DNA of 64,000 nucleotides from positions 1-64,000 of the forward strand of contig JAJDYI010000046.1 in NCBI GenBank assembly GCA_022825235.1, read 5' to 3'. Both the position numbers and the translations under genes were made by a program. Below, in pieces: positions 15,171 through 53,109 of the stretch (position 1 is its first letter; every line of letters begins with the position of its first letter). The stretch is from Alphaproteobacteria bacterium. Lineage in GTDB: Bacteria; Pseudomonadota; Alphaproteobacteria; TMED109. The notes beneath the pieces are model-generated. The model ran no database searches. It saw only the letters and a list, made by a program, of their open reading frames with translations, and was not told the DNA's origin.

Positions 15171-15176
15171 GCGCCC

Positions 15177-20411: not shown

Positions 20412-22715
20412 ATGACGCAACGCGACGAAACGGCCCAGCAGACGGAACCCGGCAGCCATCTCTCCGCGCTCAGCGCGGCGGTGCTGCGCATCGGCGCGAG
20501 CCTCGACCTCGACACCGTTCTCACCGAGGTGCTCGACGCGGCCCGCGCGCTCACCGGCGCGGGCTGCGGCGCCATCGCCACCGTCGATGCCGCCGGGCGC
20601 CCCGGCGACTTCGTCACCTCCGGCCTCACGGAGGACGAGCACCGTGCGCTCGAGGACTGGCCCGACGGGCCCAATCTCTTCGCGCATCTCGGCGGACTTG
20701 CCGCGCCGATCCGGCTGGCCGACCTCGCGGAGTTCGTGAGCGCGCTGATTCCCACACCCTGTCCGATCGACTGCGGCGCCTTCCAGGGCACGCCGATGCG
20801 CCACCGCGGCGTCCATGTCGGGAGCTTCTTCCTCGGCACCAAGGAGGGCGGGTTCACCGAGGCGGACGAGGAGGTGCTGGTGCTGCTCGCCGCCCAGGCT
20901 GCGGCGGCGGTCGCCAACGCGGGTGCGCACCGCGAGGAACGGCGCGCCCGGACCGACCTCGAGGCGCTGGTCGAGACCTGCCCGGTCGGCGTGGTGGTGC
21001 TGGATGCCGCCACCGGCGCGCTCGCCTCGTTCAACCGGGAGGCGCGGCGCATCACGGCCGGGCTGGTCTCGCCCGAGCTCCCGGTCGAGCGGCTGCCCGG
21101 CGCGATGACCTGCCGGCGGGGCGACGGGCGCGCGGTCACCCTCGACGATCTCGGGCGCGCCGAGACGGTGCGCGCCGAGGAGGTCGAGCTCTCGGTGCCC
21201 GGCGGGGCCAGCGTCCGCACCTTGCTGGATGCGACCCCGATCCGCACCGAGGACGGCGCGGTGGAACGGGTGGTGGTGATCCTTCAGGACCTCGAGCCGT
21301 TCGAGGCGCTGGCGCGCTCGCGCGCCGAGTTCCTCTCCACGGTGAGCCACGAGCTGCGCGCCCCGCTCGCGGCGATCAAGGGCTCGGCGATGACGGCGCT
21401 GGAGGGCGCGCGCGAGCCCGACCGCTCGGAGCTGCGCCAGTTTCTGCGCATCGTCGGCGAGCAGGCCGACCGCATGGACGGGCTGATCGGCGACCTGCTC
21501 GACGCCGGGCGCATCGGCGCCGGCGTGATGCCGGTCGATCCCGAGGCGCAGGTGCTTTCCGGGCTGGTCGAGCGGGCGCGGACCGCGTTCGCCGGCGCCG
21601 GCGGCAAGCACGCCGTGGTCGTCGACCTGCCCCCGGACCTGCCGCGCGTGATGGCGGACCTGCGGCGCATCGTGCAGGTGCTGGACAACCTGCTGACCAA
21701 TGCCGCGCGGCACTCGCCGGAGGCCGCTCCCATCCGGGTGGCAGCGGCGCGCGACGGGGCGCACGTGGCGGTCTCGGTTGCCGACGACGGCGAGGGGATG
21801 GCGCCGGAGCGCCTCGCGCACCTGTTCCGCCGCCACGCCGGCATCGACGAAGGCAGGGCCGGCGGGTCGGGGCTCGGACTGGTGATCTGCCGGGGTCTCG
21901 TGGAGGCGCACGGTGGGCGCATCCGGGCCGAGAGCGCCGGGCCGGGCCGGGGCACCACGGTCACCTTCACGCTGCCGGCGGCGGAGGAGCCCCCCACCGC
22001 TTCCGTGCCTGCGGCAGCCTCGCCCGATGGGCGGGACCGGCCTGCGGTCCTGGTGGTCGACGACGACCCGCACGCGCTCCGCCAGATGCGCGACGCGCTG
22101 GCGGCGGCGGGCTACGAACCCGTGACCGCCGCCGGGCCGGGCGAGGTGGCCCGCCTGGTCGAGACCCGGCGCCCGGTGCTCGCGGTGCTCGACCTGGTGC
22201 TGCCCGGCGCCGACGGCATCGAGCTGCTGCGCACCCTGCCGGTGCTCGCCGACCTGCCGGTGATCTTCGTCTCGGCCTACGGCCGGGGCGAGACCATCGC
22301 GCGGGCGCTGGAGGCGGGCGCGGCCGACTACATCGTCAAGCCCTTCTCGCCGGCCGAGCTGGTGGCGCGGGTCGGCGTCGCGCTCAACCGCCATGCCGGG
22401 CCCGGGCCCTTCGTGCTCGGCGACCTCGCCATCGACCGCGCGACCCGCCGCGTCACCGTCGCCGGCACACCGGTGCGGCTCACCGCCATCGAGTACAAGC
22501 TCCTGCACGCACTCTCGCTCGACGCCGGCGGGGCGACGACCTACGAGACGCTCCAGCGCCGGGTGTGGGGCGACCGCGGCGGCGCCAACCCGCAGGCCGT
22601 GCGCAACGCCATCCGCAAGCTCCGCCACAAGCTCGGCGACGACGCCCGGAACCCGAAATACATCCTCAGCGAGCGTGGCCTCGGCTACCGCATGCCCGGG
22701 CCGGATGACCAGTGA
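20412..22715 (+). CDS. Hybrid histidine kinase with receiver and C-terminal winged-helix DNA-binding domain
   Basis: This 767-residue cytoplasmic protein folds a whole two-component pathway into one chain. A GAF domain (15-170) and a PAS-like domain (180-295) precede HisKA with H313 in STVSHELRAP, HATPase_c with the N box (LDNLLTNAARHSPEA, N426/N430) and G box (GGSGLGLVICRG, about 484-495), a receiver domain (545-655) with phospho-acceptor D594 and K643, and an OmpR-type winged helix (665-762) ending GLGYRMP. It has no membrane segment, so it should sense an internal ligand or redox state through GAF/PAS. The next gene, 166 bases on, encodes a formate/nitrite-type channel. A truncated copy and two fragments of the same family lie elsewhere in the window. 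Confidence 0.93.
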   Translation: MTQRDETAQQTEPGSHLSALSAAVLRIGASLDLDTVLTEVLDAARALTGAGCGAIATVDAAGRPGDFVTSGLTEDEHRALEDWPDGPNLFAHLGGLAAPIRLADLAEFVSALIPTPCPIDCGAFQGTPMRHRGVHVGSFFLGTKEGGFTEADEEVLVLLAAQAAAAVANAGAHREERRARTDLEALVETCPVGVVVLDAATGALASFNREARRITAGLVSPELPVERLPGAMTCRRGDGRAVTLDDLGRAETVRAEEVELSVPGGASVRTLLDATPIRTEDGAVERVVVILQDLEPFEALARSRAEFLSTVSHELRAPLAAIKGSAMTALEGAREPDRSELRQFLRIVGEQADRMDGLIGDLLDAGRIGAGVMPVDPEAQVLSGLVERARTAFAGAGGKHAVVVDLPPDLPRVMADLRRIVQVLDNLLTNAARHSPEAAPIRVAAARDGAHVAVSVADDGEGMAPERLAHLFRRHAGIDEGRAGGSGLGLVICRGLVEAHGGRIRAESAGPGRGTTVTFTLPAAEEPPTASVPAAASPDGRDRPAVLVVDDDPHALRQMRDALAAAGYEPVTAAGPGEVARLVETRRPVLAVLDLVLPGADGIELLRTLPVLADLPVIFVSAYGRGETIARALEAGAADYIVKPFSPAELVARVGVALNRHAGPGPFVLGDLAIDRATRRVTVAGTPVRLTAIEYKLLHALSLDAGGATTYETLQRRVWGDRGGANPQAVRNAIRKLRHKLGDDARNPKYILSERGLGYRMPGPDDQ

Positions 22716-22881: not shown

Positions 22882-23700
22882 ATGAGCGAAGACCGCTCCC
22901 CCCATCCCTTCGACATCGACGCCTACGCGCCGGCGGAGATCGCACGGCGCGTCGAGTCCTCCGGCGTCGCCAAGGTCAACCTGCCGCTCCTGCAGACCCT
23001 GGCTCTCGCCGTGCTGGCCGGCGCGTTCATCGCGTTCGGCGGGATGAGCTACACCGTCGTCGTCACCGGCTCCGAACTCGGCTTCGGCCCGACGCGCCTT
23101 CTCGGCGGCGTCGCGTTTTCCCTGGGCCTGGTCCTGGTGGTGATCGGCGGCGCCGAGCTCTTCACCGGCAACAACCTCATCGCGATGGCCTGGGCCGACC
23201 GGCGGGTGACGACGCGTCGGCTGCTGCGGAACTGGCTGCTCGTCTATGCCGGCAACGCCGTCGGCGCGCTCGGGAGCGCGGCCGCCGTCCTCCTGTCGGG
23301 CATCCTGGATGCCGGGGGCGACCTCCAGGAGACCGCCGTCGCCATCGCCGAGGCCAAGATCGCGCTGGGCGCCCCGGAGGCCTTCTTCCGCGGCATCCTG
23401 TGCAACGTCCTGGTCTGCCTCGCCGTCTGGCTGTGCTTCGCCGCCCACACCGTCACCGGCAAGGTGCTGGCGGTCGTCTTTCCGGTCTCGGCATTCGTGG
23501 CGCTCGGCTTCGAGCATTCCGTCGCCAACATGTACCTGATCCCGGTCGGCCTCTTCGCAGGCGGCACCGTGCCCGCTGCCGCCGACCTGGCGGCGATGGC
23601 GCAGAACTTCGCCGTCGTCACCCTCGGCAACATCGTCGGCGGTACGCTGCTGGTGGCACTCGTCTACTGGCTCGTCTACCTGCGCCACCGGCAGGACTGA
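22882..23700 (+). CDS. Formate/nitrite transporter (FNT) family channel
   Basis: The 272-residue protein has the FNT layout with six hydrophobic segments: about 38-58, 70-92, 110-135, 165-188, 195-215 and 240-262. Family signatures include GAELFTGNN near residue 90 and NMYLIPVGLFAGG near 215. FNT pentamers carry formate, nitrite or hydrosulfide across the inner membrane; the substrate is not decided by sequence. ATG 22882, preceded by AGGGATCCGGG, is used because the frame upstream is the shadow of the kinase gene. A decayed copy of the same family lies at about 35.7-36.1 kb on the other strand. Confidence 0.9.
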   Translation: MSEDRSPHPFDIDAYAPAEIARRVESSGVAKVNLPLLQTLALAVLAGAFIAFGGMSYTVVVTGSELGFGPTRLLGGVAFSLGLVLVVIGGAELFTGNNLIAMAWADRRVTTRRLLRNWLLVYAGNAVGALGSAAAVLLSGILDAGGDLQETAVAIAEAKIALGAPEAFFRGILCNVLVCLAVWLCFAAHTVTGKVLAVVFPVSAFVALGFEHSVANMYLIPVGLFAGGTVPAAADLAAMAQNFAVVTLGNIVGGTLLVALVYWLVYLRHRQD

Positions 23701-23779: not shown

Positions 23780-24113
23780 ATGATCGTCGAGGACCAGACC
23801 GGGGTCGTGGACTTCCTGTCGACCGCCGACGCCCACGGCATCGGCGAGGCGGAAGTCCGCATCAACCGCCGCACGACGCCCTCGATCTACCAGCGGACGG
23901 ATCGGCTGGGACGGGCCGGGCGAGGTCGTCGACTGGATCGTTTGCATGGCGCTGTTCGACGAGGACCGAGTCTTCGACGAGCTCGCGCTCCGTCGGGAGC
24001 TTCCCGCCAGCCTGGTCGACGGGCTGGCGGATGCGGTGGCGCGGTTTTACGACGGCGCCACGATCACGCCAGAGTTCGGCGGCCGCGGCACTCCTTTGCA
24101 AGGTCGCCAATGA
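23780..24113 (+). pseudogene. Remnant of an AAA/aminoglycoside-phosphotransferase-like protein
   Basis: From ATG 23780 the frame reads MIVEDQTGVVDFLSTADAHG, the usual N-terminus of bifunctional APH-like/P-loop proteins, then jumps to RINRRTTPSIY, so about 45 residues are missing. Near 23910 the frame shifts and continues as GEVVDWIVCMALFDED and LPASLVDGLADAVARFYDGA until the stop at 24113. The kinase core and the C-terminal ATPase part are absent. This is a dead fragment formed by an internal deletion, a frameshift and a C-terminal truncation. Confidence 0.7.
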
Positions 24114-24174
24114 TATGTGCATGGCCGCCCATGATATGGTTCAGCCATACGCACTCCCTCCAGGCAACGCTGCG

Positions 24175-24411
24175 ATGAAGACCACGCTCAATCTGAACGA
24201 TCAAGTGCTGCGCCAAGCCAAGGGACGGGCAGCCCGCGACGGCATCACGCTCACGAGATTTGTCGAAGACGCTTTGCGCGCGCGTCTCGCCGACGCGCGC
24301 GCCAGAAAACGAGGCTTCCGTCTGCGACTTGAGACGGTGACCGGAACTTCTCCGCCCAACGTCGACATCGCCGACCGCGACGCGCTCTACGAGGTGATCG
24401 ACCGCGTGTGA
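24175..24411 (+). CDS. Antitoxin of a VapBC-type pair
   Basis: The 78-residue protein begins MKTTLNLNDQVLRQAKGRAA, a ribbon-helix-helix-like start followed by TLTRFVEDALRARL, typical of VapB-type antitoxins. The C-terminal half is basic and then acidic and should wrap the toxin. Its stop overlaps the toxin start by four bases (GTGA), the usual coupled arrangement. An upstream in-frame extension exists but the DNA-binding strand begins at this ATG. Autorepression of the pair by the complex is expected from the family. Confidence 0.85.
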   Translation: MKTTLNLNDQVLRQAKGRAARDGITLTRFVEDALRARLADARARKRGFRLRLETVTGTSPPNVDIADRDALYEVIDRV

Positions 24412-24836
24412 TCGCCGTAGACACCAACATCCTGATCTACGCCCATCGCGGCGAGACTGATCTGCACCGCCCGGCCACCTTGCGCCTCACCGCCTTGGCC
24501 GAGGGTGTGGAGCGGTGGGCTCTTCCGATCTTCTGCGTCACTGAGTTCATGCGGGTGGTCACGCATCGGCGCGTGTTCAATCCGCCGACCACCGTGGCCC
24601 AGGCCGCCACGTTCATCGAGAGGCTCATCGCCGCCCCCAGTTGCGAACTGCTCCAGCCCGGACCCGAGTTTCTCGATCTGCTGATCGCAAGTGTCCGTGA
24701 AGCCGATGCAAGCGGCAATTTGATCTTCGACGCGCAGATCGCAGCGCTCTGTCAGGAGAACGGAATCGACACGATCCTTACCAACGACCGTGACTTCGCA
24801 CGCTTCGAGTCCCTTCAGGCGCACCGACTTGAGTAA
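24408..24836 (+). CDS. PIN-domain toxin of a VapBC-type pair
   Basis: The 142-residue protein starts with GTG and reads MIAVDTNILIYAHRGE, giving the first PIN acidic residue D5. Further acidic ligands are E in CVTEFMRVV (about residue 45), D in LIFDAQIAA and D in ILTNDRDFARF. Four such residues coordinate Mg2+ or Mn2+ in VapC ribonucleases, so this should be an RNase neutralised by the overlapping upstream antitoxin. Length and motif order match the family and nothing is missing. Confidence 0.9.
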   Translation: MIAVDTNILIYAHRGETDLHRPATLRLTALAEGVERWALPIFCVTEFMRVVTHRRVFNPPTTVAQAATFIERLIAAPSCELLQPGPEFLDLLIASVREADASGNLIFDAQIAALCQENGIDTILTNDRDFARFESLQAHRLE

Positions 24837-24961: not shown

Positions 24962-25822
24962 ATGCATGGCGACATGAAATACCAAGTCGCATTGTCTTTT
25001 GCCGGTGAGCAACGACCCTACGTCGAAGAAGTAGCTCATCACCTCGCCGCACGGGGAATCGCGGTGTTCTACGATGACTTTGAAAGGGTGGGGCTCTGGG
25101 GACAGAACCTGGCGGAAGCGTTTCACAAGGCGTTTGAACGGCAATCCGATCTAGTCGTGATGTTCGTGTCCAACGCCTACATCGAAAAGCCGTGGCCAAG
25201 CCATGAGCGGCGGTCGGCACTGAGTCGCATGGTCCGCGACCGAAGCGATTACGTTCTTCCCGTCCGTTTCGACGATACGCCAGTGGATGGGCTGCCCGAG
25301 GACGTTGCCTACCAAGGTGCAGATCAACGTACTCCCGCACAACTTGCCGCGATGATAGCCGAGAAGTTGGGAATTCAGCCCTTCCAGGGCAAGGCTTCCC
25401 AAGTACCTCCACCGAGAATGACATCGCCCACCGGCGAAGCCGTCTTTGACTACAGCAGCTACAACGGGCGCTACGTCATCGGTCTCGGAGAACTGGAATT
25501 CGAGACAATGTGGACCAAAGCAAGCGATACCAACATCCATGTATACAACGAGCCCGCGTCGATCAACGGAGTCGCACTTGCTCGAGGTTGTGCGTCGATT
25601 TCTCAAGTGCTCAACGCTGCATCATTGGATTACACATCGAGGACCCGAACCGTTTCTCTCGGCGGGATTGCGGTATTACGCAATACGAGGGGCTTCTACG
25701 CCGCAATTCACGTACTCGGAATCAAGGATGACAGCCGCCGCGATGACAGGGATGAACTCCGCTTTCGATACGCCATACAGGCTGATGGTTCGGACAACTT
25801 CGCCGAGTTCGTAGACAATTGA
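24962..25822 (+). CDS. TIR-domain protein with C-terminal domain of unknown function
   Basis: The 286-residue protein opens with a TIR domain (KYQVALSFAGEQRPYVEEVA to about residue 135), containing the box-1-like ALSFAGE, FYDDFE and a conserved-position glutamate in SHERRSAL (NADase-type glutamate). Residues about 155-286 form a second beta-rich domain beginning FDYSSYNGRYVIG, not recognised. Bacterial TIR proteins commonly act as NAD-cleaving effectors or signal generators in antiphage immunity; that role is inferred. No partner gene adjoins it in the same direction; the VapBC pair lies 125 bases upstream. A downstream ATG (24974) is an alternative start. Confidence 0.85.
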   Translation: MHGDMKYQVALSFAGEQRPYVEEVAHHLAARGIAVFYDDFERVGLWGQNLAEAFHKAFERQSDLVVMFVSNAYIEKPWPSHERRSALSRMVRDRSDYVLPVRFDDTPVDGLPEDVAYQGADQRTPAQLAAMIAEKLGIQPFQGKASQVPPPRMTSPTGEAVFDYSSYNGRYVIGLGELEFETMWTKASDTNIHVYNEPASINGVALARGCASISQVLNAASLDYTSRTRTVSLGGIAVLRNTRGFYAAIHVLGIKDDSRRDDRDELRFRYAIQADGSDNFAEFVDN

Positions 25823-26043: not shown

Positions 26044-26106
26044 TCACGCCTTAGAGTGCGTCTGTCATCAAGAGAATCCCACGAGGATTCAATTTTGGGT
26101 AAGGAT

Positions 26107-26292
26107 ATGATTCAAAGGGGTTTTGACGGCACAGGAGGCCGGACACTTGACTCGAATGACCTTCGTGAGCGCGTGGTGCGCGCCCATCTCAACGGCGAGC
26201 CGATCCGCTCGGTGGCGGCGCAGTTCGGGGTCAGCGTGTCTTCGGTGCCGAAGTGGGTGGCGCGCTACCGTGCCACGGACAGCGTCGCTTGA
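26107..26292 (+). pseudogene. IS630-family transposase N-terminal fragment
   Basis: The frame reads SNDLRERVVRAHLNGEPIRS and continues VAAQFGVSVSSVPKWVARYR, the helix-turn-helix start of IS630/Tc1-type transposases, and stops at 26292 (TGA). The DDE domain is absent. A C-terminal IS630 remnant lies at 53.8-54.3 kb, not adjacent. Confidence 0.75.
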
Positions 26293-26686: not shown

Positions 26687-27157
26687 CTAGTTGACCACGA
26701 TCTCGCCCTTCGCGTTCACCCGGTAATACGAGGCCAGTCCTTTAAGGAAATGTTCCGAGTGCACAATTGTCTCTGTCTCGCAATACGCCACCAGCGTGAT
26801 CCCGTTGGTCCACACATGCAGACCCACTTCGGAGCAAACGCTGTGAAAGCCGCTCCCGCCCCAATACAAGCGAGCGGTCTCGGTCGCCGGGTCTTCCTCA
26901 TAGCCGACCTCGTCGGAGAGATTGGTACTCGTCTGCTCCCTGTCGTCGTTGTCGTCGCTGACCCGGCACCACGCCGTCATATCGGCATGTTCCGACGTCA
27001 CATCCACGCTGAATCGGTCACAATCCTCGTGGAGCTTCCCCGTGCGGGGCTCGACGGTCTGCTGGGCCGACGCGGGGCCGGCCAGCACCGTAGCAATGCC
27101 CAGCGCGGTGACCGCACCAATGAGAACTCTTGTCGCTGAAACGTGATTGGCACTCAT
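26687..27157 (-). CDS. Secreted cyanovirin-N homology (CVNH) protein, copy 1
   Basis: The 156-residue protein starts at MSANHVSATRVL with a signal peptide cut near PASAQQ. The mature part resembles one CVNH domain: TGKLHEDCDRFSV, then MTAWCRVSD, SGFHSVCSEV and VAYCETE give the four spaced cysteines and the paired C-x-W/A-x-C-R pattern of this sugar-binding fold. It ends with YYRVNAKGEIVVN, shared in kind with copies 2 and 3 (33927 and 34569). Export to the periplasm or outside and glycan binding are inferred from the fold. It has no operon partner; transposase debris lies downstream and a kinase fragment upstream. Confidence 0.75.
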   Translation of the reverse strand: MSANHVSATRVLIGAVTALGIATVLAGPASAQQTVEPRTGKLHEDCDRFSVDVTSEHADMTAWCRVSDDNDDREQTSTNLSDEVGYEEDPATETARLYWGGSGFHSVCSEVGLHVWTNGITLVAYCETETIVHSEHFLKGLASYYRVNAKGEIVVN

Positions 27158-27466
27158 GAGCCTCCCCCTTGTCGCCGTTGGCACACTGCCGATGAAGCGC
27201 GCAGCCATCACCCAGTGTGATATCGCGGGCTCAACCACTCTCAGGGCAGCCGGACCGGCACGGCACGCGGATTCCGCGCAGCGCATTCCGGCTGGCTATC
27301 AAGGCTTCGTAATCGGCCTCCAGATCATGGTACAGCCCTTGCAGTATATCAAGATCGTAACTTTCCGCAAGGTTATTGCAGATGATTCCGCTATCAGTAG
27401 TACATTAGAGGATAAGATAGGCGGCGATACTCTCTGAAATATATCAATAAGGATCCAGTACATATC
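27158..27466. other. AT-rich intergenic region between CVNH gene and kinase fragment
   Basis: The part from about 27330 to 27466 is AT-rich, like the block before the intact kinase gene, and contains ATCGTGACAGTGA at the start of the fragment. No gene is recognised. Confidence 0.35.
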
Positions 27467-27850
27467 GTGACAGTGATTGATAGCCCGCGTCCCCAGGCCG
27501 TGCGGCCGTCGGAGGAGGATACGGCCCGGATGGAATGCGGCGAAGCGACACGCGAAGCGGTCCCCCGCGAATCTCCGTCCGCGCTCGGCATGGCGGTCCG
27601 GCGCATCGGCGCGAGCCTTGACCTTGACGCCGTACTCAAGGAGGTACTCGATACCACCCGCGCTCACCGGCCCAGGTTGCGGCGCCATCGCCGCCATCGA
27701 TGCGGCCGGCAGACCCGGCGACTTCATCACTCCGGCCTACTTGACGAGCACCGGATTCGCCTGCGGCTTGGGCCGAGTCGCGCCGAGGCGGTCCTCGAAA
27801 CCCGGCGCGCAGGCCCCGTTGCCGGCAGCCATGCTCCCCGGCACGTCGCC
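27467..27850 (+). pseudogene. Hybrid kinase remnant (GAF N-terminal fragment)
   Basis: From 27467 the frame reads AVRRIGASLDLDAVLKEVLD, matching residues 23-42 of the intact kinase at 20412. Near 27660 one base is missing relative to the intact gene and the match continues in the next frame as GPGCGAIAAIDAAGRPGDFI. Similarity ends near 27740 and the rest of the kinase is absent. The promoter region also resembles that of the intact gene, so a duplicated locus was truncated. Confidence 0.75.
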
Positions 27851-28100
27851 AGATGATGTCACGGCAGCGGCCTTCGTCGCCTGCCTGCCGAGGACCTTCA
27901 TCGGCCTCCAGGCAGGTAAGTCCTCAATCGTGATGCGGCAGCAGCAGCCGTACCGTAATGGCGGCGGCCGGCTGAGGAATCCGATGGAACGACAGCAGGG
28001 CCATGGATGGCGAATTCGAACGCGGCCGGACGGGCTCCGCGCCCCAGACGGCCGAGGTTCGCATTGCGGCGCGCCGCACCGTCCGGTGCTGCAATTGAGG
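27851..28100. other. Degenerate intergenic stretch
   Basis: No recognisable gene lies between the kinase fragment and the end of the convergent efflux operon. Confidence 0.3.
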
Positions 28101-29354
28101 TTATGAACGCAGCGCCGCGATCGGTTCGAGCCGCGACGCCTTGTGGGCCGGGTAGAGACCGAACGCCACGCCGATGCCCGAGGAGACGCCTACGCCCATG
28201 ACCATGGCGGTCACCGACACGGAAAAGGGCCAACCCGCGAACAGGCAGATGCCCAAGGATGCCGCGGCGCCCGCCAGCACGCCGAGCGCACCCCCCAGAA
28301 GGCAAAGCACGACCGATTCGGTGACGAATTGCTGGCGGATGTCTCTCCGGCGTGCGCCGACCGCCCGTCTGAGTCCGATCTCCGCACGCCTCTCGCTCAC
28401 CGAGATGAGCATCAGGTTCATGACCCCGACCCCGCCGACGATCAGCGAGATGCTGCCGACCGCAGCGAGCAGCAGCGTGAACAGCTGCCCCTGGTTGCGC
28501 ATCCGGTCGATGAGTTGTTGCGCAGCCGTAACCTCCATCCGGAGGCCCGGGACACGATGGTGGAAGTAGGAGACCACAGCCTCCGTCGCCGCCTCGGGAA
28601 GCACACCCGGGGCGATGCGGGCGACGATGCGGCGGAACGGCGTATCGGTGGCAACGCGCCGCGCGGCTTCGAGCGGAATAAACACGGTGTCGTCGGGTCT
28701 GAGATCCTGCCCGAAACGCCGGGTCTCGGCCGGACGAAGCACCCCGACGACACTGTACAGGCGCCCGTTGAGCCGAATATTCTCCCCGAGCACCGTGCCG
28801 GCGCCGGCACGGCTGATCGCGCGCGCCACGCCATCGCCCAGCACGCAGAAGCGCTGGTGCAGGTCCAGGTGGGATACGAATCGCCCGGCCGCCAGCTCAA
28901 GGCCGTTGATGCCGGCCAGGGATTCGGTGGCTCCCAGCACGATCGGCTGGTTCGGGATCGCCTTGCCCGCGTACATGGGGTCCCCGCCCACGTCCAGCCA
29001 TGTCGCGGCGGCCACGATCTCGGGCGTCTCGAGCACCAGGTCGCGGACGTCGGCGGCGGAGAAGTTCAGCGTCCTTCCCCGGACTCTCGTGTGCACCCGA
29101 CGGATCGCCAGGATATCGGTCCCGAGCCCTTCGAACTGCTTCAGCGCCTCTCCCTTCACGACCTCCCCGGTCGAGACCATCGCAATCACGGAGCCGATGC
29201 CCACCACGATGCCGACCAGGGCAAGAATGCTGCGGCCGCGAATGCTCGCGAGACTGGCCAGGGCCTCCTTGACGTTTGTCCTCGACAGCACGGTGACGGC
29301 CGCTCCGCTAGCCCTGATCAGGTGTCGTGGGTACGCGCCCCTCTTCGTGGACAA
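28101..29354 (-). CDS. MacB-type ABC transporter permease
   Basis: The 417-residue protein has the FtsX/MacB layout: an N-terminal membrane segment after NVKEALASLASIRGR (about residues 38-62), a periplasmic MacB_PCD-like domain (about 65-270) and three C-terminal membrane segments (about 295-320, 345-370 and 380-400) with NLMLISVSERRAEIGLRRAV. It should transmit ATP-driven motion to the tripartite pump rather than form a classical channel. It overlaps the ATPase gene by 47 bases and is last in a four-gene operon. A start a little downstream, near VTVLSRTN, is possible. Confidence 0.92.
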   Translation of the reverse strand: MSTKRGAYPRHLIRASGAAVTVLSRTNVKEALASLASIRGRSILALVGIVVGIGSVIAMVSTGEVVKGEALKQFEGLGTDILAIRRVHTRVRGRTLNFSAADVRDLVLETPEIVAAATWLDVGGDPMYAGKAIPNQPIVLGATESLAGINGLELAAGRFVSHLDLHQRFCVLGDGVARAISRAGAGTVLGENIRLNGRLYSVVGVLRPAETRRFGQDLRPDDTVFIPLEAARRVATDTPFRRIVARIAPGVLPEAATEAVVSYFHHRVPGLRMEVTAAQQLIDRMRNQGQLFTLLLAAVGSISLIVGGVGVMNLMLISVSERRAEIGLRRAVGARRRDIRQQFVTESVVLCLLGGALGVLAGAAASLGICLFAGWPFSVSVTAMVMGVGVSSGIGVAFGLYPAHKASRLEPIAALRS

Positions 29355-30006
29355 GCCCGTCCTCGACGCGAGCGCGGCGGCGGCACCGCTCTGAAACTTC
29401 CGGGCTGTGGGTCACGATGACGACGGCCATGCGCTGTTCGGAACAGAGGCGCTCGAACATGTCCATGATCTCGGCGCCGGTGTCGGGGTCGAGCGCACCG
29501 GTCGGTTCGTCGGCGAGCACGACCGAGGGTTCGCCGATGATCGCCCGCGCAACTGCGACGCGCTGCTGCTGGCCACCGGAAAGCTGGTTCGGTCGGTGGC
29601 CGGCCCGATCCGCCATGCCGACGCGGTCCAGCGCCTCGAGGGCCAGCCGCCTGACCCGTCCTTCGGGTTCCCGCCGGTAGATCAGTGGAAGTCCGGCATT
29701 CTGCGCCGCCGTCAGGCGCGGCAGCAGGTGAAAGGACTGGAACACGAACCCGATGCTGGCATTCCGCACGGCCGAGACCTCGTCGTCGTTCATCCCGGAC
29801 GCCTCCCGGCCGTTCAGGAAATAGGCGCCGCTTGTCGGGCGGTCCAGCAGCCCGATGATGTTCATGAGCGTCGACTTGCCGCACCCCGAAGGACCCATGA
29901 TCGACAGCAGGTCGCCCTCGTGCACGTCAAGCGAGACGCCGTTGAGAACCTCCACCGTCACGGGGCCGACCCGATAGCTCTTGCGGATGTCTTCCAGCCG
30001 GATCAT
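29308..30006 (-). CDS. MacB-type ABC transporter ATP-binding protein
   Basis: The 232-residue ATPase has all ABC motifs: Walker A GPSGCGKST (about 39-47), Q-loop in FVFQSFHLLPRL, signature LSGGQQQRVAVARA, Walker B VVLADEPTGALD and the switch histidine in VIVTHSPEV. It is of the LolD/MacB class. Its ATG overlaps the stop of the PAS-fused membrane fusion protein as ATGA, so the two are coupled. It energises the efflux or secretion complex formed with the neighbouring permease, adaptor and TolC-type channel. Confidence 0.95.
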   Translation of the reverse strand: MIRLEDIRKSYRVGPVTVEVLNGVSLDVHEGDLLSIMGPSGCGKSTLMNIIGLLDRPTSGAYFLNGREASGMNDDEVSAVRNASIGFVFQSFHLLPRLTAAQNAGLPLIYRREPEGRVRRLALEALDRVGMADRAGHRPNQLSGGQQQRVAVARAIIGEPSVVLADEPTGALDPDTGAEIMDMFERLCSEQRMAVVIVTHSPEVSERCRRRARVEDGLVHEEGRVPTTPDQG

Positions 30007-31820
30007 CCGGGACGCCTGCCCGGCCCATCCCCGAGAACCACCTCGTCGCCCGCTTCGAGACCTCGGGTGACATGCACCGAATCGCGGGTCGTCGCGCCGG
30101 TCTCGACCTCGATGCTCCGGACCTGTCCGGTGGCACGGTCCAGAACGCGGACCGACAGGGAGCCGCTTCGGCGCTGCACCGCGTGAAGTGGAACGAGCAG
30201 GGCACGCGGCATGTCCTGGATCACGACCTCGACGTCGACGGACATCCCGAGCCGCAGCAACTGCCGCACCTCCGGATCGAACGCGTCCAGTGCCGCGGCG
30301 AAGCTGAAGGACGCCGGCTGGCGCCGAGACAGGGCATCGACGGCCTGCGGGGACACGCTGCTGAGGGCGCCGGCGAGCGCGACGCCCGGAAAGGCGTCCC
30401 CGGTGACCGTGACCGGCTGCCCGACGCGCAGTTTCGCGACTTCCACCTCGTCGACGAATCCCTCGACCGACAGGGAATCGATATCCGAAACCCTCAACAG
30501 GAGCTGCCCGGGAGACACGGGCGTCCCCTCGAGGAGGCGCCCCGCCCCGCCCGACTGCCCCGCGAATCCGGAGCGTTCCTGCGCCGGTTGCATCACGATC
30601 CCCGATACCGGCGACCGCACCGTCGCGTGCGTCATCGCGGTCTCGATCTCCCGGAGCCGCTCCTCCACGGTCTGCAACTCCAGGCTCGCGACCTCCCTGG
30701 CCGCCGCCCCGCCCCGCTCCCGCACCGCCTGGAGATTGACTTCGGCGGCACTCTGCTCGGCCTGCAGGTTCTCGTACCGTTCCATCGCCGTTTCGTGCTC
30801 CAGTGCGGGGATGACCCCGCTCTCGAGCAGAAAGGCGGTTTGCTCGATCTTCCGCTGCTGGCTGTCGAGGGCGCGGCGGGACCGGTCGAGGGCACGGCGG
30901 GCGGCCAGCGTCTCCGGGCCGTTCTCCCAGTTGTCCAACTCCTGGACGCGCTTGATGGCTTCGATGTATTGCGCCCGGGTCGCGCGGTGTTCCTGGGCAA
31001 TCGTGGAGGTGTCGAGCTCGAGCAGTACCTGTCCTTGCTCGACTTCGTCGCCGTACTGGAAATGCAACGCGCCCACCGTGCCGGGGATCGGGCTGATGAT
31101 GTTCGTCTCCTGCCGGGCCGCAAGCCGTCCGGGGAATGACACCGCGGAAAGCAGGTGCTGCGGCTGGACGATCATGGTGGCGAGCGGCTCGCCGCCCTCT
31201 GCCGCCGCCGTCGTTACCGTCGCCGTCGAGGCCGCCACGACCGCTCCCCGGGTCCCCTGCCAGGCGTAGTAGCCGGCACCGAGGCAAATCGCGAGCACGG
31301 TCCCCGTCGCGATCGCCTTGATCACCTGCACGCGTCGGAGCGTGGACGACAACTCGCGGTTGCTCTCCTCGATCTGGCGGTAGGCCGTCTGCAGTTCCGC
31401 ATACTGCTCCTTGACCTGCTCACCCAGCCGAATCTCGGTCTCACGGAGCTCCTGGATCTCCGTGATGTCCGAGAACACCGCGACGATGCCGGTCCTCCGG
31501 CTGTCCGGACCGCTGCCCGCATGCAGCCAGGATGTGCTGATGTTGATCAGGCGCCGCTCGCCACCGGTCCGGATCTCGATCGCCTTGCGGCCGACATTGC
31601 GCTTCTCGCCGACCGCGTCGAAAACGGTTTCGGTGAACGCGTCCAGGCCCTCCAGCGCCACGAAGGCCTCGCCGAAACTGCGGCCCTCGACCTGACTCCT
31701 CTCCATGCCGAGAATGCGCGCGGCGGCGGCGTTGACGGACACGACCTTGCCGTCCAGCGCGACCGAGACGACGCCGTCGTCCATGTCGTCCAGAATGGTG
31801 TCGTGAACGAGCGCATCCAT
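30003..31820 (-). CDS. PAS-domain-fused HlyD/MacA-type membrane fusion protein
   Basis: The 605-residue protein has an unusual order. A cytoplasmic PAS domain (about 5-120) with GVVSVALDGKVVSVNAAAAR and FSDITEIQELRE is followed by a coiled coil (121-165), one membrane segment (167-187, ATGTVLAICLGAGYYAW), then a periplasmic adaptor: lipoyl-like half-motif (230-270, ISPIPGTVGALHFQYGDEVE), a long alpha-hairpin (about 275-400) and beta-barrel and membrane-proximal domains to the end. Classical adaptors have no PAS part. The ATG at 31820 is chosen because it opens the PAS helix, five bases after the TolC gene stop. A sensing role that gates the pump is inferred. Confidence 0.92.
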   Translation of the reverse strand: MDALVHDTILDDMDDGVVSVALDGKVVSVNAAAARILGMERSQVEGRSFGEAFVALEGLDAFTETVFDAVGEKRNVGRKAIEIRTGGERRLINISTSWLHAGSGPDSRRTGIVAVFSDITEIQELRETEIRLGEQVKEQYAELQTAYRQIEESNRELSSTLRRVQVIKAIATGTVLAICLGAGYYAWQGTRGAVVAASTATVTTAAAEGGEPLATMIVQPQHLLSAVSFPGRLAARQETNIISPIPGTVGALHFQYGDEVEQGQVLLELDTSTIAQEHRATRAQYIEAIKRVQELDNWENGPETLAARRALDRSRRALDSQQRKIEQTAFLLESGVIPALEHETAMERYENLQAEQSAAEVNLQAVRERGGAAAREVASLELQTVEERLREIETAMTHATVRSPVSGIVMQPAQERSGFAGQSGGAGRLLEGTPVSPGQLLLRVSDIDSLSVEGFVDEVEVAKLRVGQPVTVTGDAFPGVALAGALSSVSPQAVDALSRRQPASFSFAAALDAFDPEVRQLLRLGMSVDVEVVIQDMPRALLVPLHAVQRRSGSLSVRVLDRATGQVRSIEVETGATTRDSVHVTRGLEAGDEVVLGDGPGRRPG

Positions 31821-31825
31821 GTCCG

Positions 31826-33328
31826 CTACTCGAGGGCGCCCTCGACCTCGACCTCCCAGGTGTCGAGGACCGTGCCCGCCGTCCGGTCGAGTGTGCTCCA
31901 CGCATTCAGGTACCCGATCCTGGCGTCGAGCTCGTTGACCTGCGCGTTCACGAGGTCGGTCTGAAAGGTGGCCAGCCTGAAATTGGACGTCAGGCCCAGC
32001 TTCAGCTTGCCGTCCTCGATCTCGAGCTGCTGCCGGGCGAGGTCCAGCGCCTGGCGCGCCAACTCCATCTGCGTCAGCCCCAGCTCGACCGCGCTGACCG
32101 CGTTGCGCAGGCCGGCATCCAGCTCGCGGGCTTCGGTCGCGAGCGATCGCTCGGCCTTCCGCAGATCAAGCCGGGCAGCGATGTGCGCCCGCTTCGCGGC
32201 CTGCGTCGCGGCATCCCCCAGAGGGATGGTGAGCGCCACGCCGGCGGTGTAGATCCCCTTGTCCGCGTTGCCTCCCAGGTCCCGCAGGCCGGCGCCGAAG
32301 GAGGTGCCCTGTCCGCCGAACGCGGCCCGGGCCTCGAACGAGAGCTCCCAGAGCGTGCCGTCCGCGGCCTGGGCCAGCCGTATCGCCGCGCTTCGCAGGT
32401 TCAGGTGCGCCTTCAGGTAGTCCGCGTTGCGCTCCCGCGCGAGCGCCCGGATGCTCTCCAGATCGGGCCGCAGCGGCTCGACGGTCAGGGTCTGGACGGG
32501 CAGGACCCGGACATCGCCCTCCAGGTCGAGGAGGACGTTCAGGTCCAGCCCGGCGTCTGCCACGCGATTCCGGCTGCGGACGACTTCCAGCTCCCGCCTC
32601 GCGATGTCGGTCTCCGTCTGGACGATGTCCGTCCGCGCCATCCTGCCGGTATCGACCAGGAGTTGGTTGACCTCGAGCGTCTCCCTGGCCCGTTGCAGTG
32701 CGCTCTCGTTGATCTTCAACTGCAGGTCAGCCCGAATCGCCGCGCGGTACGCCTTGATCACCGAAGTGATCACGTCCATCGCGGCGGCCCTGAGATCCAG
32801 GACATGACGCTCCTCCTCGATCCGCGCCAGCCTGACCGGTGCGAGACCGACATCGAGCCCCGCACCGCGCAGCAGGGGATGGGAGAAGGCGAGTTCCACG
32901 CTGGTATCGTGCGCCTCGTCCGGTCCGCCCGAATGGCCGAGCCGCGCGGTCCAGGCCGGTCGCACGCTGACCGCTCCGCCCGTGGGCAGGCGCATGGTCA
33001 CGCGTGGCCCCGCGCCGAAGGTGTAGCCGCCGGTATCCGCGCCCCGGTCGGTGCGATAGCCGGCGGTCGCGGCCTCCAGGCTCACCTTCGGCAGGAAACT
33101 CTCTTCCGACTGCTCAAGGTCAAATCTGTGGAGGGTTCGGTCGAGCCTGGCATCGACGAGCGCGGGGTTGTCCCGGAGCGCCCGCGCTACCGCCTCGGCA
33201 AGGGTGAGCCGGATGGTCTCCGGCGGCGCAGCGTCGACCTCGGCGCCGGACGCGCCGGCCCAACTCTGTCCGGCGAGCACGACGGCAAGGCAGGCCATGA
33301 AGACACGCGGGCGCTGGTCACGCCCCAT
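31826..33328 (-). CDS. TolC-family outer-membrane efflux protein
   Basis: The 500-residue protein starts at MGRDQRPRVFMACLAVVL with a signal peptide cut near GASGA. The mature part has two repeated OEP halves of long helices, including LTLAEAVARALRDNPALVDA, QTETDIARRELEVV, LRSAAIRLAQA and QQLEIEDGKLKLGLTSNFRL, typical of TolC-type trimeric channels. It is first in an operon with the PAS-fused adaptor, ATPase and permease, so all parts of a tripartite pump are encoded together. An in-frame ATG upstream (33373) would bury the signal peptide. Confidence 0.93.
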   Translation of the reverse strand: MGRDQRPRVFMACLAVVLAGQSWAGASGAEVDAAPPETIRLTLAEAVARALRDNPALVDARLDRTLHRFDLEQSEESFLPKVSLEAATAGYRTDRGADTGGYTFGAGPRVTMRLPTGGAVSVRPAWTARLGHSGGPDEAHDTSVELAFSHPLLRGAGLDVGLAPVRLARIEEERHVLDLRAAAMDVITSVIKAYRAAIRADLQLKINESALQRARETLEVNQLLVDTGRMARTDIVQTETDIARRELEVVRSRNRVADAGLDLNVLLDLEGDVRVLPVQTLTVEPLRPDLESIRALARERNADYLKAHLNLRSAAIRLAQAADGTLWELSFEARAAFGGQGTSFGAGLRDLGGNADKGIYTAGVALTIPLGDAATQAAKRAHIAARLDLRKAERSLATEARELDAGLRNAVSAVELGLTQMELARQALDLARQQLEIEDGKLKLGLTSNFRLATFQTDLVNAQVNELDARIGYLNAWSTLDRTAGTVLDTWEVEVEGALE

Positions 33329-33362
33329 ACTTCCACATCCGGCGATTTCGGATGAGTCTCGG
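33325..33362. repeat. Diverged direct repeat, copy 1 (before tolC-type gene)
   Basis: CATCCGGCGATTTCGGATGA with its flanks recurs as CATCCGGTGATTTCGGATGA at 33520-33558, in the same orientation, with preceding sequence CGCCCC-TACTTCC versus CGCCCCGTGCTTCC. It overlaps the upstream region and start of the outer-membrane channel gene. Confidence 0.55.
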
Positions 33363-33519
33363 CTTGAACACAACTCCCCGCCCGTGTGTCATGAACGTAC
33401 GGCTATTGACACATTATGCGAGAATCCGGCTGCATGAAAGTGCTTGAACGTGTCCTATCGGGGTACAACAGGCAGGAAAGTGCTCTACAGGTTATTGAAG
33501 AAGAGCGGGCGTCGGGGAC

Positions 33520-33558
33520 GCCCCGTGCTTCCGCATCCGGTGATTTCGGATGAGTCCC
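33520..33558. repeat. Diverged direct repeat, copy 2
   Basis: Second copy of the element described at 33325-33362, about 200 bases away. A weaker relative (GAGGACGCCCCGTTTGACC, then a TGCGCGAATCC string) is seen near 35340-35390. Confidence 0.5.
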
Positions 33559-33669
33559 GCCGTGATCATGACCGACGAAGCGACGGCGAAGACCGATCGG
33601 GCTCAGTTGCCGGTAACCGGGCGGCGGCGAGCTTCGGAGCCCCAAGATAGTGGTGTCGAGCACGCGCAC

Positions 33670-33800
33670 CCTTCACTGCGGCTTCGGTCGGAGGGGGAAC
33701 GGGCGCGCATGGTCGCGGAGACGTGCGAGCCCGGTGTTTCGGTCAGGTCGGTTGCCCGCCGACACCATGTCGGCGACATGACTCCGAGCAAGCGGCGGCG
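33670..33800 (+). pseudogene. IS66/IS3-type transposase orfA remnant
   Basis: The frame reads GERARMVAETCEPGVSVRSV followed by ARRHHVG, closely like the helix-turn-helix start of IS66 TnpA or IS3 orfA proteins. Neither a complete orfA nor a downstream transposase is found, so this is a remnant. Confidence 0.6.
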
Positions 33801-33926
33801 ACAGGACCAAGATCAGCGAGGGTCGGACCGGGCGCACGGCTGCCGCGCCCGGGCGATCGGGGACGTGCGCCAACCCTGTGCCTGCAAGGGGTGCAGGCAG
33901 GACAAGCGCGCCGGCGCCGGGCGCGC

Positions 33927-34493
33927 TTATCTGAACTCCAGCGCGCCTTCCGTGCTCACCTGGTAGCACTCATTCAGGTCCAGAGATGTCGCCAGCGCCG
34001 CCGTGCGCGAGCATTCGATTGGCCACACCTCCTCGTTGCAGTTCTCGCTGGGCTGGTAGACGCACTCCGCCTTCAGCACGACGCGGGAGTAGTCCGCCTC
34101 GAGCTGGACATCGAAGCAATACTGCTGGAAGTGGCCCCTGTGGCAATGCAGGACGCCCCAGTCGTCACTGCCGACGGTGAGGTCAATGCTCGTCCGTTCC
34201 CTGTCGTAGCTGAAGTCGCTGACCCGGCACCACGCCCGCAGCTGCATGTCATGGTCGGTCTCCTGCAGGCTGAAGCGCTGGCAGTCATCGTGCAGGTTCC
34301 CCGTCCTGCCGGCCACCAGGCCGCCCTCGTCCTGAAGAAGGTCCGAAATGTCCCCCTGGTCGGGGATCTCGTCAACGTCGGCCACACCGGAGTGGTCGTC
34401 AGCCGAGGCCGGGGCGGCCATCAGGACCGCCGCGAGGCCCAGCACCGCGACCATGGAGACCGCGCCTCTCCTGCCAAATCGCCTTGCATTCAT
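33927..34493 (-). CDS. Secreted cyanovirin-N homology (CVNH) protein, copy 2
   Basis: The 188-residue protein starts with ATG behind GGAGGAG and has a signal peptide (MNARRFGRRGAVSMVAVLGL, cut near PASADD). An acidic linker (residues 33-62) leads to a CVNH-like domain: TGNLHDDCQRFSLQ, LRAWCRVSD, RTSIDLTVG, FQQYCFDVQL and LKAECVYQ, with an extra cysteine pair (ENCNEEVWPIEC) inserted in the last strand. It ends YQVSTEGALEFR. The family binds high-mannose glycans in known members; the ligand here is unknown. The gene follows copy 3 with 75 bases between them, so both may be in one transcript. Confidence 0.78.
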   Translation of the reverse strand: MNARRFGRRGAVSMVAVLGLAAVLMAAPASADDHSGVADVDEIPDQGDISDLLQDEGGLVAGRTGNLHDDCQRFSLQETDHDMQLRAWCRVSDFSYDRERTSIDLTVGSDDWGVLHCHRGHFQQYCFDVQLEADYSRVVLKAECVYQPSENCNEEVWPIECSRTAALATSLDLNECYQVSTEGALEFR

Positions 34494-34568
34494 GTGTTCG
34501 CTCCTCCAGTTGCGGGAAGCCGCCGGGGCTCCCCTTGTCCCCGTCGGCCCGTGCCGGGCCGGAGCGGG

Positions 34569-35087
34569 CTACCTGACCTCGAGTTCGCCGGCCGAGTTCA
34601 CCCGATAGTGCGGGGCCAGCTCCAGCGAAGAGACCTTCATGACGTAGGTCTCTCTCATGCACTCCCCGGTAAACTCGTCACGGAAAGAACACCGGACGCC
34701 GGCGATGCACTCGGCCGTCATCTTCAGGCCGTTGACATGCGACAGGAATTCGACGTCACGGCAATCTCGATGGAAGTCGCGCCCGCCCCACTGCAAGCGT
34801 CCGTCCCCTCCCTTGCCGATGTCGCTCGCCAGGTCGACGCTCGTCTGCTTCCTCTCGGTGTTGCCGTCACTGATCCGGCACCACGCCCGAAGCTCGAACT
34901 TGCTGGATCCCCAGACCGAACTGAACCGCTCGCAGTCCTGGTGGATTTCCCCGGTCCGTGCTTCCACAGGCGAATCCTGGCCTGCTGCCGGCCCGGCCAA
35001 CGCTGCCGCGATGCTCAGGGCGGCAATCATGGCCAAGGGCCCGCCCCGCTTCTGCCCGTTGCCGACACCCATACATTGTTCACGCAT
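34569..35087 (-). CDS. Secreted cyanovirin-N homology (CVNH) protein, copy 3
   Basis: The 172-residue protein has a signal peptide (LAMIAALSIAAALAGPAAGQ, cut near AAGQD) and a CVNH-like domain: TGEIHQDCERFSS, LRAWCRISD, QTSVDLASDIG, GRLQWGGRDFHRDCRDV and MTAECIAGVRC, the fit to the family being best here because of the LxWGGxxFxxxC core. Extra cysteines (RCSFRDEFTGEC) match the insertion in copy 2. It ends HYRVNSAGELEVR. An AT-rich region upstream (35100-35500) should hold its promoter. Confidence 0.8.
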   Translation of the reverse strand: MREQCMGVGNGQKRGGPLAMIAALSIAAALAGPAAGQDSPVEARTGEIHQDCERFSSVWGSSKFELRAWCRISDGNTERKQTSVDLASDIGKGGDGRLQWGGRDFHRDCRDVEFLSHVNGLKMTAECIAGVRCSFRDEFTGECMRETYVMKVSSLELAPHYRVNSAGELEVR

Positions 35088-35689: not shown

Positions 35690-36100
35690 GTTCATTCCCC
35701 CATCGGTGCCGCAGGTACGCGAGCCAGTACAGCAACTAGACCGGGACCTTCCCCCCCCCCCCACAATGTCCCCGAGCGTCACCGCGACGACGTTCTGCGC
35801 CATCCCCGCGAGTTCCTCCGCACCTGGCGCCGCCCCGCCCGCGAACAGGCCGACCGGGATCAGGTACAGGTTGGCGAGGCAATGCCCGAATTCCAGGACG
35901 ACGAAGGCGAAGGCTGGACACACGATCACCAGGATCTTTCCGGTGGCCGGGTGCACGGCAAAGCAGAGGCAGACAGCCGGACAATCCAGGACCTTGCAGA
36001 GGATGCCATGCCGGAAAGCCTCCATGGTGCCCCACTCGATCTTGTTGCGGGCGCTCGCGACAGCGGTCGCCCGAATATCGCGGACGGCGGGCAGATGATC
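35690..36100 (-). pseudogene. Formate/nitrite transporter pseudogene
   Basis: The minus strand reads NLYLIPVGLFAGGAAPGAEE, VCLCFAVHPATGKILVIV and VAVTLGDIVGG, matching the C-terminal half of the intact channel at 22882. The frame is broken after DIVGG by a run of twelve C (plus strand, 35751-35762), beyond which LLYWLAYLRHRWGNE continues in another frame. The N-terminal membrane segments are absent. It is therefore a truncated, frameshifted copy. Confidence 0.8.
35751..35762. repeat. C12 homopolymer tract
   Basis: Twelve consecutive C on the plus strand at the frame break of the channel pseudogene. It could be a slippage-prone site. Confidence 0.7.
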
Positions 36101-37523: not shown

Positions 37524-38483
37524 ATGCAGCCACCAGGTAAGGCACACCGCGACGGCATTAGCATCATGCAGCTTACCGCCATGTTCCCTACGGAAGAAGC
37601 GGCGGAAACATGGTTTGAGGAGGTGCGGTGGGGTGCTACAAGTCGCCACTGCGCCAAATGCGGTTCCACCAATACCTACGAGGTAAAGCGCCGCAAACCG
37701 CAGCCCTACCGTTGCCGTAGCTGCAAGAGCTATTTCAGCGTGCGCACGGGCAGTGCGCTGGCCGAGACTAATTTGCCACTACGCACCTGGCTACATGCCA
37801 TCTACCTTTACATCACCAGCCTTAAATCTGTTAGCAGCATGAAACTGCACCGGGACCTGGGTATTACGCAGAAGACGGCGTGGTTTCTGTTGCACCGTTT
37901 GCGCACCGCATGGGACGGGGATCCGGCGGACTTGTTTACTGGACCTGTTGAAGTTGACGAAACGTATATGGGTGGGAAGGCCCGCAACAAGTCCAACCAC
38001 CAGCGCCGACAGGCAAAGGCAACGGGTAATGAGGTGGCACCCAAGACAGCCGTTGTGGGTGCAAAGGACCGCTGCATACGCAAGGTGGCCGCCCGGGTGG
38101 TGGCCGCGCCCAATATGGCCGAGTTGCTGGGTTTAGTGACGAAAACGGTTGGTGCAGACGCAGTAGTGTATACGGATGAGGCCAAGGCCTACCAGGGCCT
38201 GCCGCGCAGCCACGGCACGGTAAAGCATGGTGCAGGGGAATACGTGCGCGGCGATGTGCACACCAACGGTGTCGAGTCGTTTTGGAGCATGCTAAAGCGT
38301 GCCCACATGGGCACCTTCCACCACTTGTCCCCCAAGCACCTGCACCGTTACGTGGCGGAGTTCGCGGGACGGCACAACGTGCGCAACCAGGACACCATCA
38401 AGCAGATGCAGGCAGTGGTTGCTGGTACGCTGGGTAAACGGCTCATGTATGCGGAACTAGTGGCAAAGCGCCTCAAGCTATGA
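37524..38483 (+). CDS. IS1595-family transposase
   Basis: The 319-residue protein has an N-terminal zinc ribbon with C43/C46 and C64/C67 (CAKC, CRSC), a helical DNA-binding part, and an ISXO2-like DDE domain: D in VEVDETYMGGK (about 144), D in VVYTDEAKAYQGL and the last acidic/Asn motif in HTNGVESFWSMLKRAH. All expected catalytic blocks are present, so the element may still be active. It lies within the inverted repeats at 37456 and 39490. Its 3' end overlaps the convergent passenger gene by six bases. Confidence 0.95.
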   Translation: MQPPGKAHRDGISIMQLTAMFPTEEAAETWFEEVRWGATSRHCAKCGSTNTYEVKRRKPQPYRCRSCKSYFSVRTGSALAETNLPLRTWLHAIYLYITSLKSVSSMKLHRDLGITQKTAWFLLHRLRTAWDGDPADLFTGPVEVDETYMGGKARNKSNHQRRQAKATGNEVAPKTAVVGAKDRCIRKVAARVVAAPNMAELLGLVTKTVGADAVVYTDEAKAYQGLPRSHGTVKHGAGEYVRGDVHTNGVESFWSMLKRAHMGTFHHLSPKHLHRYVAEFAGRHNVRNQDTIKQMQAVVAGTLGKRLMYAELVAKRLKL

Positions 38484-51576: not shown

Positions 51577-51617
51577 CCGCCGTGGTTCCATTACGGCGCC
51601 AGGCCGTTGGCCGCGGC

Positions 51618-53063: not shown

Positions 53064-53109
53064 GGCGGCACACGGGCGGGAATGCGACAGTGCCTTCGTT
53101 GGTGACGGC

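Follow-up and report, generated by a model that had tools for sequence, protein, structure and literature searches.

RESULTS

Three secreted CVNH proteins are encoded around a MacB-type exporter operon

We analyzed a 64,000-nucleotide stretch of DNA from an Alphaproteobacteria bacterium of the GTDB lineage TMED109 (assembly GCA_022825235.1, contig JAJDYI010000046.1, positions 1 to 64,000; hereafter, the window), in which three genes for small secreted proteins of the CVNH family, here called CVNH1, CVNH2, and CVNH3, lie around an operon for a tripartite exporter (Table 1). An earlier note on this DNA, made from its letters, had read the locus as three paralogous signal-peptide genes around one efflux operon, and this layout was confirmed: The three open reading frames (ORFs) are present, all on the minus strand, with pairwise tblastn E-values of 6e-29 to 2e-12 that are far beyond chance, and Pfam recognizes a TolC-type channel, an HlyD adaptor, an ABC ATPase, and a MacB-type permease between them. 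The composition by codon position, with a GC content at third positions of 0.74, 0.86, and 0.80 for CVNH1, CVNH2, and CVNH3, respectively, marks them as real genes. For CVNH1, the most likely start is the ATG at 27157, which has GGGGGAGGCTC upstream of it, and the first ATG, at 27286, was set aside in its favor. Because identity among the paralogues is only 35 to 44%, a recent duplication was rejected.

By eye, the signal peptides of CVNH1, CVNH2, and CVNH3 end in ASA, ASA, and AAG, with predicted mature N-termini QQT, DDH, and QDS. The motifs RTGxxHxDCxRFS and AWCRxSD are invariant in all three proteins, whereas the tail YRVNxxGE, which the note had likewise assigned to all of them, is present in CVNH1 and CVNH3 and replaced by YQVSTEGA in CVNH2. 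Four cysteines are common to the three (positions 46, 64, 108, and 126 of CVNH1), and relative to these, the extra cysteines claimed for two copies were found: four in CVNH2 (117, 152, 161, and 176), one of which takes the place of the W of WGG, and two in the mature part of CVNH3 (133 and 143), which also has C5 before or within its signal peptide. CVNH2 further carries an extra acidic stretch of ~30 amino acids (aa) after the signal peptide.

Table 1. Features of the locus discussed in the text (window coordinates).
Feature	Position	Strand	Description	Evidence
CVNH1	26687..27157	-	156-aa secreted CVNH protein with four Cys	tblastn with paralogue CVNH3, 6e-29
CVNH2	33927..34493	-	Secreted CVNH protein, 188 aa, four extra Cys	Pfam CVNH over cut-off
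CVNH3	34569..35087	-	172-aa secreted CVNH protein; second conserved disulfide followed by one extra Cys pair
Channel	31826..33373	-	TolC-family outer membrane channel	Pfam OEP 1.1e-33; TIGR01844 2.7e-37, below cut-off
Adaptor	30003..31901	-	PAS-HlyD adaptor	PAS 4.7e-9 and PAS_9 1.4e-9, over cut-off; HlyD_3 6.4e-13; HlyD_D23 8.9e-13
ATPase	29308..30012	-	MacB/LolD-type ABC ATPase	ABC_tran 9.3e-32; MacB PRK10535 4.5e-69, below cut-off
Permease	28101..29354	-	MacB-type permease (MacB_PCD + FtsX)	MacB_PCD 1.5e-30; FtsX 3.4e-18
Kinase-gene remnant	27463..27753	+	From 5' end of multicopy sensor-kinase gene, at 20346-20644	blastn 75.6%, 2e-47
Membrane-protein-gene remnant	35704..36071	-	From 23328-23690, inverted	blastn 71.5%, 1.7e-48; protein 54.8%, 5e-36
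Transposase	37524..38483		IS1595
ORF	26059..26289		Transposase-like, helix-turn-helix

Membership in the CVNH family is observed directly in profile searches. With Pfam CVNH (PF08881; cut-off of 24.5 bits), CVNH2 (1.4e-7, 32.7 bits) and CVNH3 (4.6e-7, 31 bits) matched above the cut-off and CVNH1 (0.025, 15.8 bits) fell below it, so that the Pfam check suggested by the note came out positive for two of the three. The NCBIfam model mannose_binding_lectin (NF052356) matched all of them (3.8e-5, 1.3e-8, and 1.9e-8 for CVNH1 to CVNH3), at 24.3, 35.4, and 34.9 bits against an equivalog cut-off of 80 bits. Run against the PDB, a profile built from CVNH1 to CVNH3 had cyanovirin-N as its best match (7.9e-8), with 15 of 16 rows being of cyanovirin type; for CVNH3 alone, 4 of 17 rows were weak non-cyanovirin matches (CcmA, E of 0.014 to 0.015), which we take as chance. 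The conserved cysteines give one pair per repeat, as in a two-repeat CVNH protein, and a CVNH repeat profile matched weakly in both halves of CVNH2 and of CVNH3. AlphaFold2 models from three-row alignments had pLDDT (predicted local distance difference test) values of 42.3 and 44.6, too poor for a fold test, so it is the sequence profiles that carry the fold assignment. On this evidence, the CVNH reading of the note is upheld and all three are supported as CVNH proteins, CVNH1 being below the cut-off though clearly a paralogue of the other two.

As such, CVNH1 to CVNH3 are new members of a known family. They share with PF08881 the tandem-repeat sequence, the cysteine positions, the W-x8-C of repeat 2 (in CVNH1 and CVNH3), and the G-x-L turns, and they differ in the extra cysteine loops of two copies and in their occurrence as three secreted copies around an exporter. 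The fungal CVNH-LysM effector MoCVNH is likewise a secreted CVNH protein, reportedly thought to act extracellularly, whereas the window proteins have no LysM insertion, are bacterial, and are exporter-linked. Given their family, CVNH1 to CVNH3 are probably lectins; mannose binding is not indicated.

The composition of the operon, with genes for permease, ATPase, HlyD-type adaptor, and TolC-type channel together, is that of a MacB-type tripartite exporter. PRK10535 is the best NCBIfam model for the ATPase (its Pfam scan was done on a longer ORF, 29311-31287), and matches to the E. coli MacA/MacB equivalog models PRK10535 and PRK11578 were far below cut-off. The adaptor is unusual in combining an N-terminal PAS domain, predicted to be cytoplasmic, with a coiled coil and one membrane helix (by eye) and a periplasmic HlyD/MacA-like part. 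This fusion, too, is directly observed: PAS and HlyD were over cut-off in 9 of 9 adaptors scanned from the window and its sister loci, a set that left out two close copies (L037 and L038). In the open-access literature searched, we found no paper on a PAS-HlyD adaptor fusion; the whole words "PAS" and "sensor" are absent from a review (PMC4446572), as is "PAS domain" from the first 300,000 of 747,799 characters of PMC8277102. Among plasmids, three records matched the adaptor, over its HlyD part only. The operon is partly duplicated at its 5' end: A direct repeat of 73 bases (33298-33370 and 33496-33568, 79% identical) has one copy where the TolC-type gene begins and the other upstream of it.

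Related exporters recurrently lie beside small secreted proteins

A query with the adaptor in 97 genomes yielded five copies in this genome (G000), three in a second one (G006), and one each in G001 and G092, and an eleventh exporter, in a genome of another GTDB family (G313), was reached through a profile search with small secreted proteins described below, giving 11 exporters in five genomes. For 7 of the 11, CVNH genes or small secreted Cys-rich genes ("minis") were found at 0 to 2.6 kb. Apart from the three CVNH genes of the window, these are minis, namely, six on contig C74, one on C34, and two on C64 of this genome, one on C129 and two on C103 of G006, and three in G313, where the count includes a secreted protein (L083 2211-2948) that the profile, which reports two, did not report. 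The four exporters with no such neighbor (C2, C28 of G006, C55 of G001, and C118 of G092) form one clade in the tree (support 100), with adaptors that are 66 to 98% identical, whereas the seven linked ones are mutually divergent (33 to 65% identical); the linkage is thus seen in all lineages but one. Linkage of this exporter type with small secreted proteins therefore recurs across two GTDB families, and it is this recurrent pairing of PAS-fused MacB-type exporters with CVNH proteins and the mini family that is unusual. The adaptor was found in G000 and G092 only in a class sample of 160 genomes (G313 is outside the genomes listed there), and a search with A8 in 398 genomes of the phylum matched G000 only. 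On C74, the exporter and its mini array are a few kb away from a gene for a formylglycine-generating-enzyme-like protein (L031 1020-1925, minus strand, 6.4e-62).

The minis are small secreted six-Cys proteins with a near-invariant pattern of C, W, A, C, C, C, N-C-x-G-x-L, and a final C, which we aligned as sets of seven (A6) and fourteen (A7) members. A search with A6 gave 14 matches in this genome, 9 of them exporter-linked, and 8 in G006, 3 of them linked. Counted as loci, 3 of 8 in this genome (binomial P of 5.7e-4) and 2 of 7 in G006 (P of 0.0039) lie within 6 kb of an exporter, P values that are optimistic because the 6-kb limit was picked after the data were seen and minis had first come to attention next to exporters. 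A7, run blind in 385 genomes of the class, matched G313, and only afterwards was it seen that the mini-bearing secreted proteins there lie directly upstream of the same type of exporter operon. The same search matched G381, with a mini-like domain joined to a Calx-beta domain, and no exporter was found in the 15 kb read there. The G381 protein (L084 834-2366) is predicted to be secreted, and its N-terminal Cys-rich region resembles, by eye, that of the G313 proteins.

Comparison of this genome with G006 gave omega values of 0.39, 0.36, and 0.25 for three orthologous mini pairs, from which we conclude that these minis are maintained genes under purifying selection. Six weak mini matches outside the genus or in other genera of the family (E of 0.019 to 0.096; five of the six with stops), were dropped as chance, and L033 10951-11283, which reads as a truncated mini, was left uncounted. 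A phage origin was rejected, with no PHROGs family below E of 0.039, as was a scavenger-receptor domain, since the only PDB match of A7 covered 16 residues (C-x3-W-x4-A-x3-C, E of 0.83). The mini L031:13690-13911 had no match in plasmids.

Minis may correspond to single CVNH repeats

Judged by their sequences, the odds are about even that minis are half-CVNH units of a single repeat. Searched against the whole PDB, A6 matched only five cyanovirin-N variants, effectively one independent match, with a best E of 0.22, and the alignment spans one repeat (chain positions 48-98). A CVNH repeat profile, built from ten repeats of five proteins of other class genomes, gave a sum of 79.2 bits over 14 minis, as compared to at most 20.5 bits in 200 Cys-preserving shuffles and at most 26.9 bits in 300 column permutations with the Cys columns fixed. 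Among 4167 six-frame segments, the top three for this profile were one mini, CVNH2, and CVNH3. The motif W-x8-C...C...N-x-x-G-x-L, which was formulated after the families had been seen, matched 16 of these segments, i.e., 14 minis, CVNH1, and CVNH3 (in shuffles, mean of 0.66 and maximum of 3), and at 33 other loci, with 2158 segments, the two G313 minis were its only matches.

A number of results point the other way. None of eight minis scanned (the truncated L033 copy among them) had a Pfam CVNH match, A7 against the PDB found no cyanovirin-N, and hhalign gave no match of A6 to A4 and a probability of 20% for A6 against the repeat set. In addition, the profile of the window CVNH proteins sets minis only weakly apart from shuffles, with 1 of 200 shuffled sets that kept C, W, and G reaching the real sum, and the W motif is missing from CVNH2 and from other CVNH proteins of the class.

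No further CVNH copies were found in relatives, and gene remnants flank the block

CVNH1 to CVNH3 are the only good CVNH matches in their own genome (two others had E of 0.27 and 0.30), in line with the local expansion proposed in the note. Searches of 60 relatives, six of which belong to the genus, and of a phylum-wide sample of 397 other genomes turned up no further copies. Across the same class, 8 of 385 genomes had a Pfam CVNH match, a number that is a lower bound because the same search missed the CVNH genes of the window; on this genome alone, the Pfam CVNH model reported CVNH2 only. With at least 8 such genomes, the note overstated the oddity of the find when it called the family best known from cyanobacteria and fungi: CVNH proteins are uncommon in this class, not new.

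When the region from 19.5 to 39.4 kb was compared with six congeners, none of them matched the CVNH genes at the DNA level, while all six had matches to the kinase gene at 20.4 to 22.7 kb, full-length in most. The block from the permease gene to CVNH3 is flanked by remnants of a kinase gene and a membrane-protein gene, both of which are intact at 20.3 to 23.7 kb. One remnant sits between CVNH1 and the permease gene and the other upstream of CVNH3, the parent of the latter being formate/nitrite-transporter-like by eye. These flanking remnants suggest that the block arose by insertion or rearrangement, which agrees with the absence of CVNH genes from the congeners. A scan of viral contigs gave no relative, and plasmids and phages yielded no match for CVNH3; the single match of a scan of genome contigs (L007) was rejected, as it falls, by the ORF list, in a histidine-kinase gene region. 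The sensor kinase/response regulator gene itself (20412-22715) has partial copies at 51612-53067 and 58493-58672 with 89 to 94% DNA identity, and many copies in the six congeners.

DISCUSSION

A proposed two-step export of CVNH proteins

CVNH proteins have been studied as antiviral lectins, and to our knowledge, the natural role of the bacterial ones is largely unknown. A sensor-fused exporter beside CVNH genes gives them a testable role as released sugar-binding proteins. We propose, with doubt and confidence in equal measure, that CVNH1 to CVNH3 are cargo of the neighboring MacAB-TolC-like exporter, that they reach it by Sec and in disulfide-bonded form, and that their release is PAS-gated. 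Judging from sequence, Sec would carry each protein to the periplasm, where the signal peptide would be removed and the protein would fold with two conserved CVNH-type disulfides and, in CVNH2 and CVNH3, extra ones. By linkage and precedent, the MacB-type permease and ATPase with the HlyD adaptor would then take up the folded periplasmic protein and expel it via the TolC-type channel, while the predicted cytoplasmic PAS domain of the adaptor may switch or tune the pump on some signal. Outside the cell, the proteins might bind glycans of a host, of a neighbor, or of the own surface. In this genome and its relatives, the sister exporters seem to handle six-Cys minis in the same way.

This proposal builds on a Sec signal, small size, disulfides, and an adjoining exporter, as in two known cases. 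MacAB-TolC takes its substrates from the periplasm, where the enterotoxin STII arrives by Sec and is first folded by DsbA (PMC5985334, in excerpt), and dispersin, of 10 kDa, is exported in two steps by a MacB-like pump (PMC7943197 and PMC8277102, in excerpt). With the STII system, the window shares MacB-type ATPase and permease domains, an HlyD/MacA-type adaptor, a TolC-type channel, and a candidate cargo predicted to be Sec-exported and disulfide-bonded; it differs in that ATPase and permease are separate genes, that the adaptor has an N-terminal PAS domain, and that the candidate cargo is a CVNH protein. The Aat system for dispersin and CexE similarly uses a MacB-like pump, which has a channel of its own, to export a Sec substrate of ~10 kDa in two steps, and the excerpts of the same two papers mention no PAS-fused adaptor for it. 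Unlike Aat, the window has no AatD-like acyltransferase among the neighbors scanned with Pfam (the search for AatD was limited to these), and the predicted mature N-termini of its CVNH proteins lack the glycine on which CexE is acylated.

Several observations weigh against this proposal. Four of 11 exporters have no CVNH or mini neighbor (the contigs of two, G001 C55 and G092 C118, end near the operon), and 10 of the 11 came from one adaptor query. Some linked clusters look incomplete, as L034 has no recognized ATPase and L035 and L036 show neither ATPase nor permease beside the adaptor. In the window, co-transcription would have to span a gap of 557 bases between CVNH2 and the channel gene and one of 947 bases, containing a gene remnant, before CVNH1. 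The linkage count is biased by the mini family having first been noticed beside exporters, G313 being the clean case, and 5 of 8 mini loci in this genome and 5 of 7 in G006 lie away from exporters; if these minis need an exporter, they would therefore have to use one in trans. Last, in the alignment of CVNH3 with cyanovirin-N, the residues that we take to form the principal mannose site of the latter are mostly changed.

The CVNH proteins could instead be ordinary periplasmic or surface proteins that became chance neighbors of a drug-efflux operon in an insertion-rich region, as the gene remnants on both sides of the block, the nearby IS1595 transposase and transposase-like ORF, the lack of CVNH at the locus in six congeners, and the unlinked mini loci elsewhere would lead one to expect. 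Chance neighborhood, however, does not readily account for a linkage that recurs with seven divergent exporters in three genomes and two families, including the blind match in G313, and we consider it unlikely. It is distinctly less probable that the small proteins are accessory or ligand-sensing partners of the pump, such as periplasmic binding proteins that load another substrate (for example, a glycolipid or peptide): A fixed partner would be expected to be single-copy and conserved, whereas the small proteins are numerous and variable, with six minis at the C74 exporter and one to three at others. Such a role would fit the PAS fusion, which suggests a regulated pump, and the fact that some MacB-family relatives handle lipids or lipoproteins (PMC5985334, in excerpt). 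We regard as very improbable a role as toxins or antimicrobials that act on other bacteria, leave the cell in the manner of microcins, and use the CVNH fold for target recognition only, even though small size, high divergence, tandem arrays, and a dedicated exporter would all suit such a role, as no immunity-gene candidate was noticed (none was specifically sought), Pfam gave no toxin family, and PHROGs gave no phage family below E of 0.039.

If CVNH1 to CVNH3 are indeed exporter cargo, then a broader and more tentative possibility is a new type of two-step secretion, in which PAS-gated MacAB-TolC-like exporters are dedicated to secreted CVNH-type proteins of a diversifying family, with two-repeat CVNH proteins and dispersed one-repeat six-Cys minis (possibly half-CVNH units that would need pairing to complete the fold) as variants of one cargo class. 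The export reading would add to the few protein cargoes listed for MacB-type pumps. The CVNH fold has long been thought to derive from an internal duplication, and minis, if half-CVNH units, would represent a one-repeat stage of this internally duplicated fold.

Other genes in the window

The gene at 24962-25822 (plus strand) encodes a TIR-domain protein (TIR_2, 7.6e-17) that continues for ~170 aa with no Pfam match, possibly a defense or signaling gene. It is preceded by a PIN-domain toxin gene (24031-24836, plus strand; 3.8e-15), whose small upstream ORF ends antitoxin-like by eye, the two resembling a VapBC pair. Two large repeat proteins (15116-17399 and 60999-63995) share long DNA stretches of 67 to 91% identity and the motif VQDAARYDVRWKTGAGDYG, and have a fibronectin-type look (by eye only). 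At 39742-42378 (minus strand), a cache-like domain (below cut-off) is joined to an autotransporter beta-domain (2.9e-9), an odd combination.

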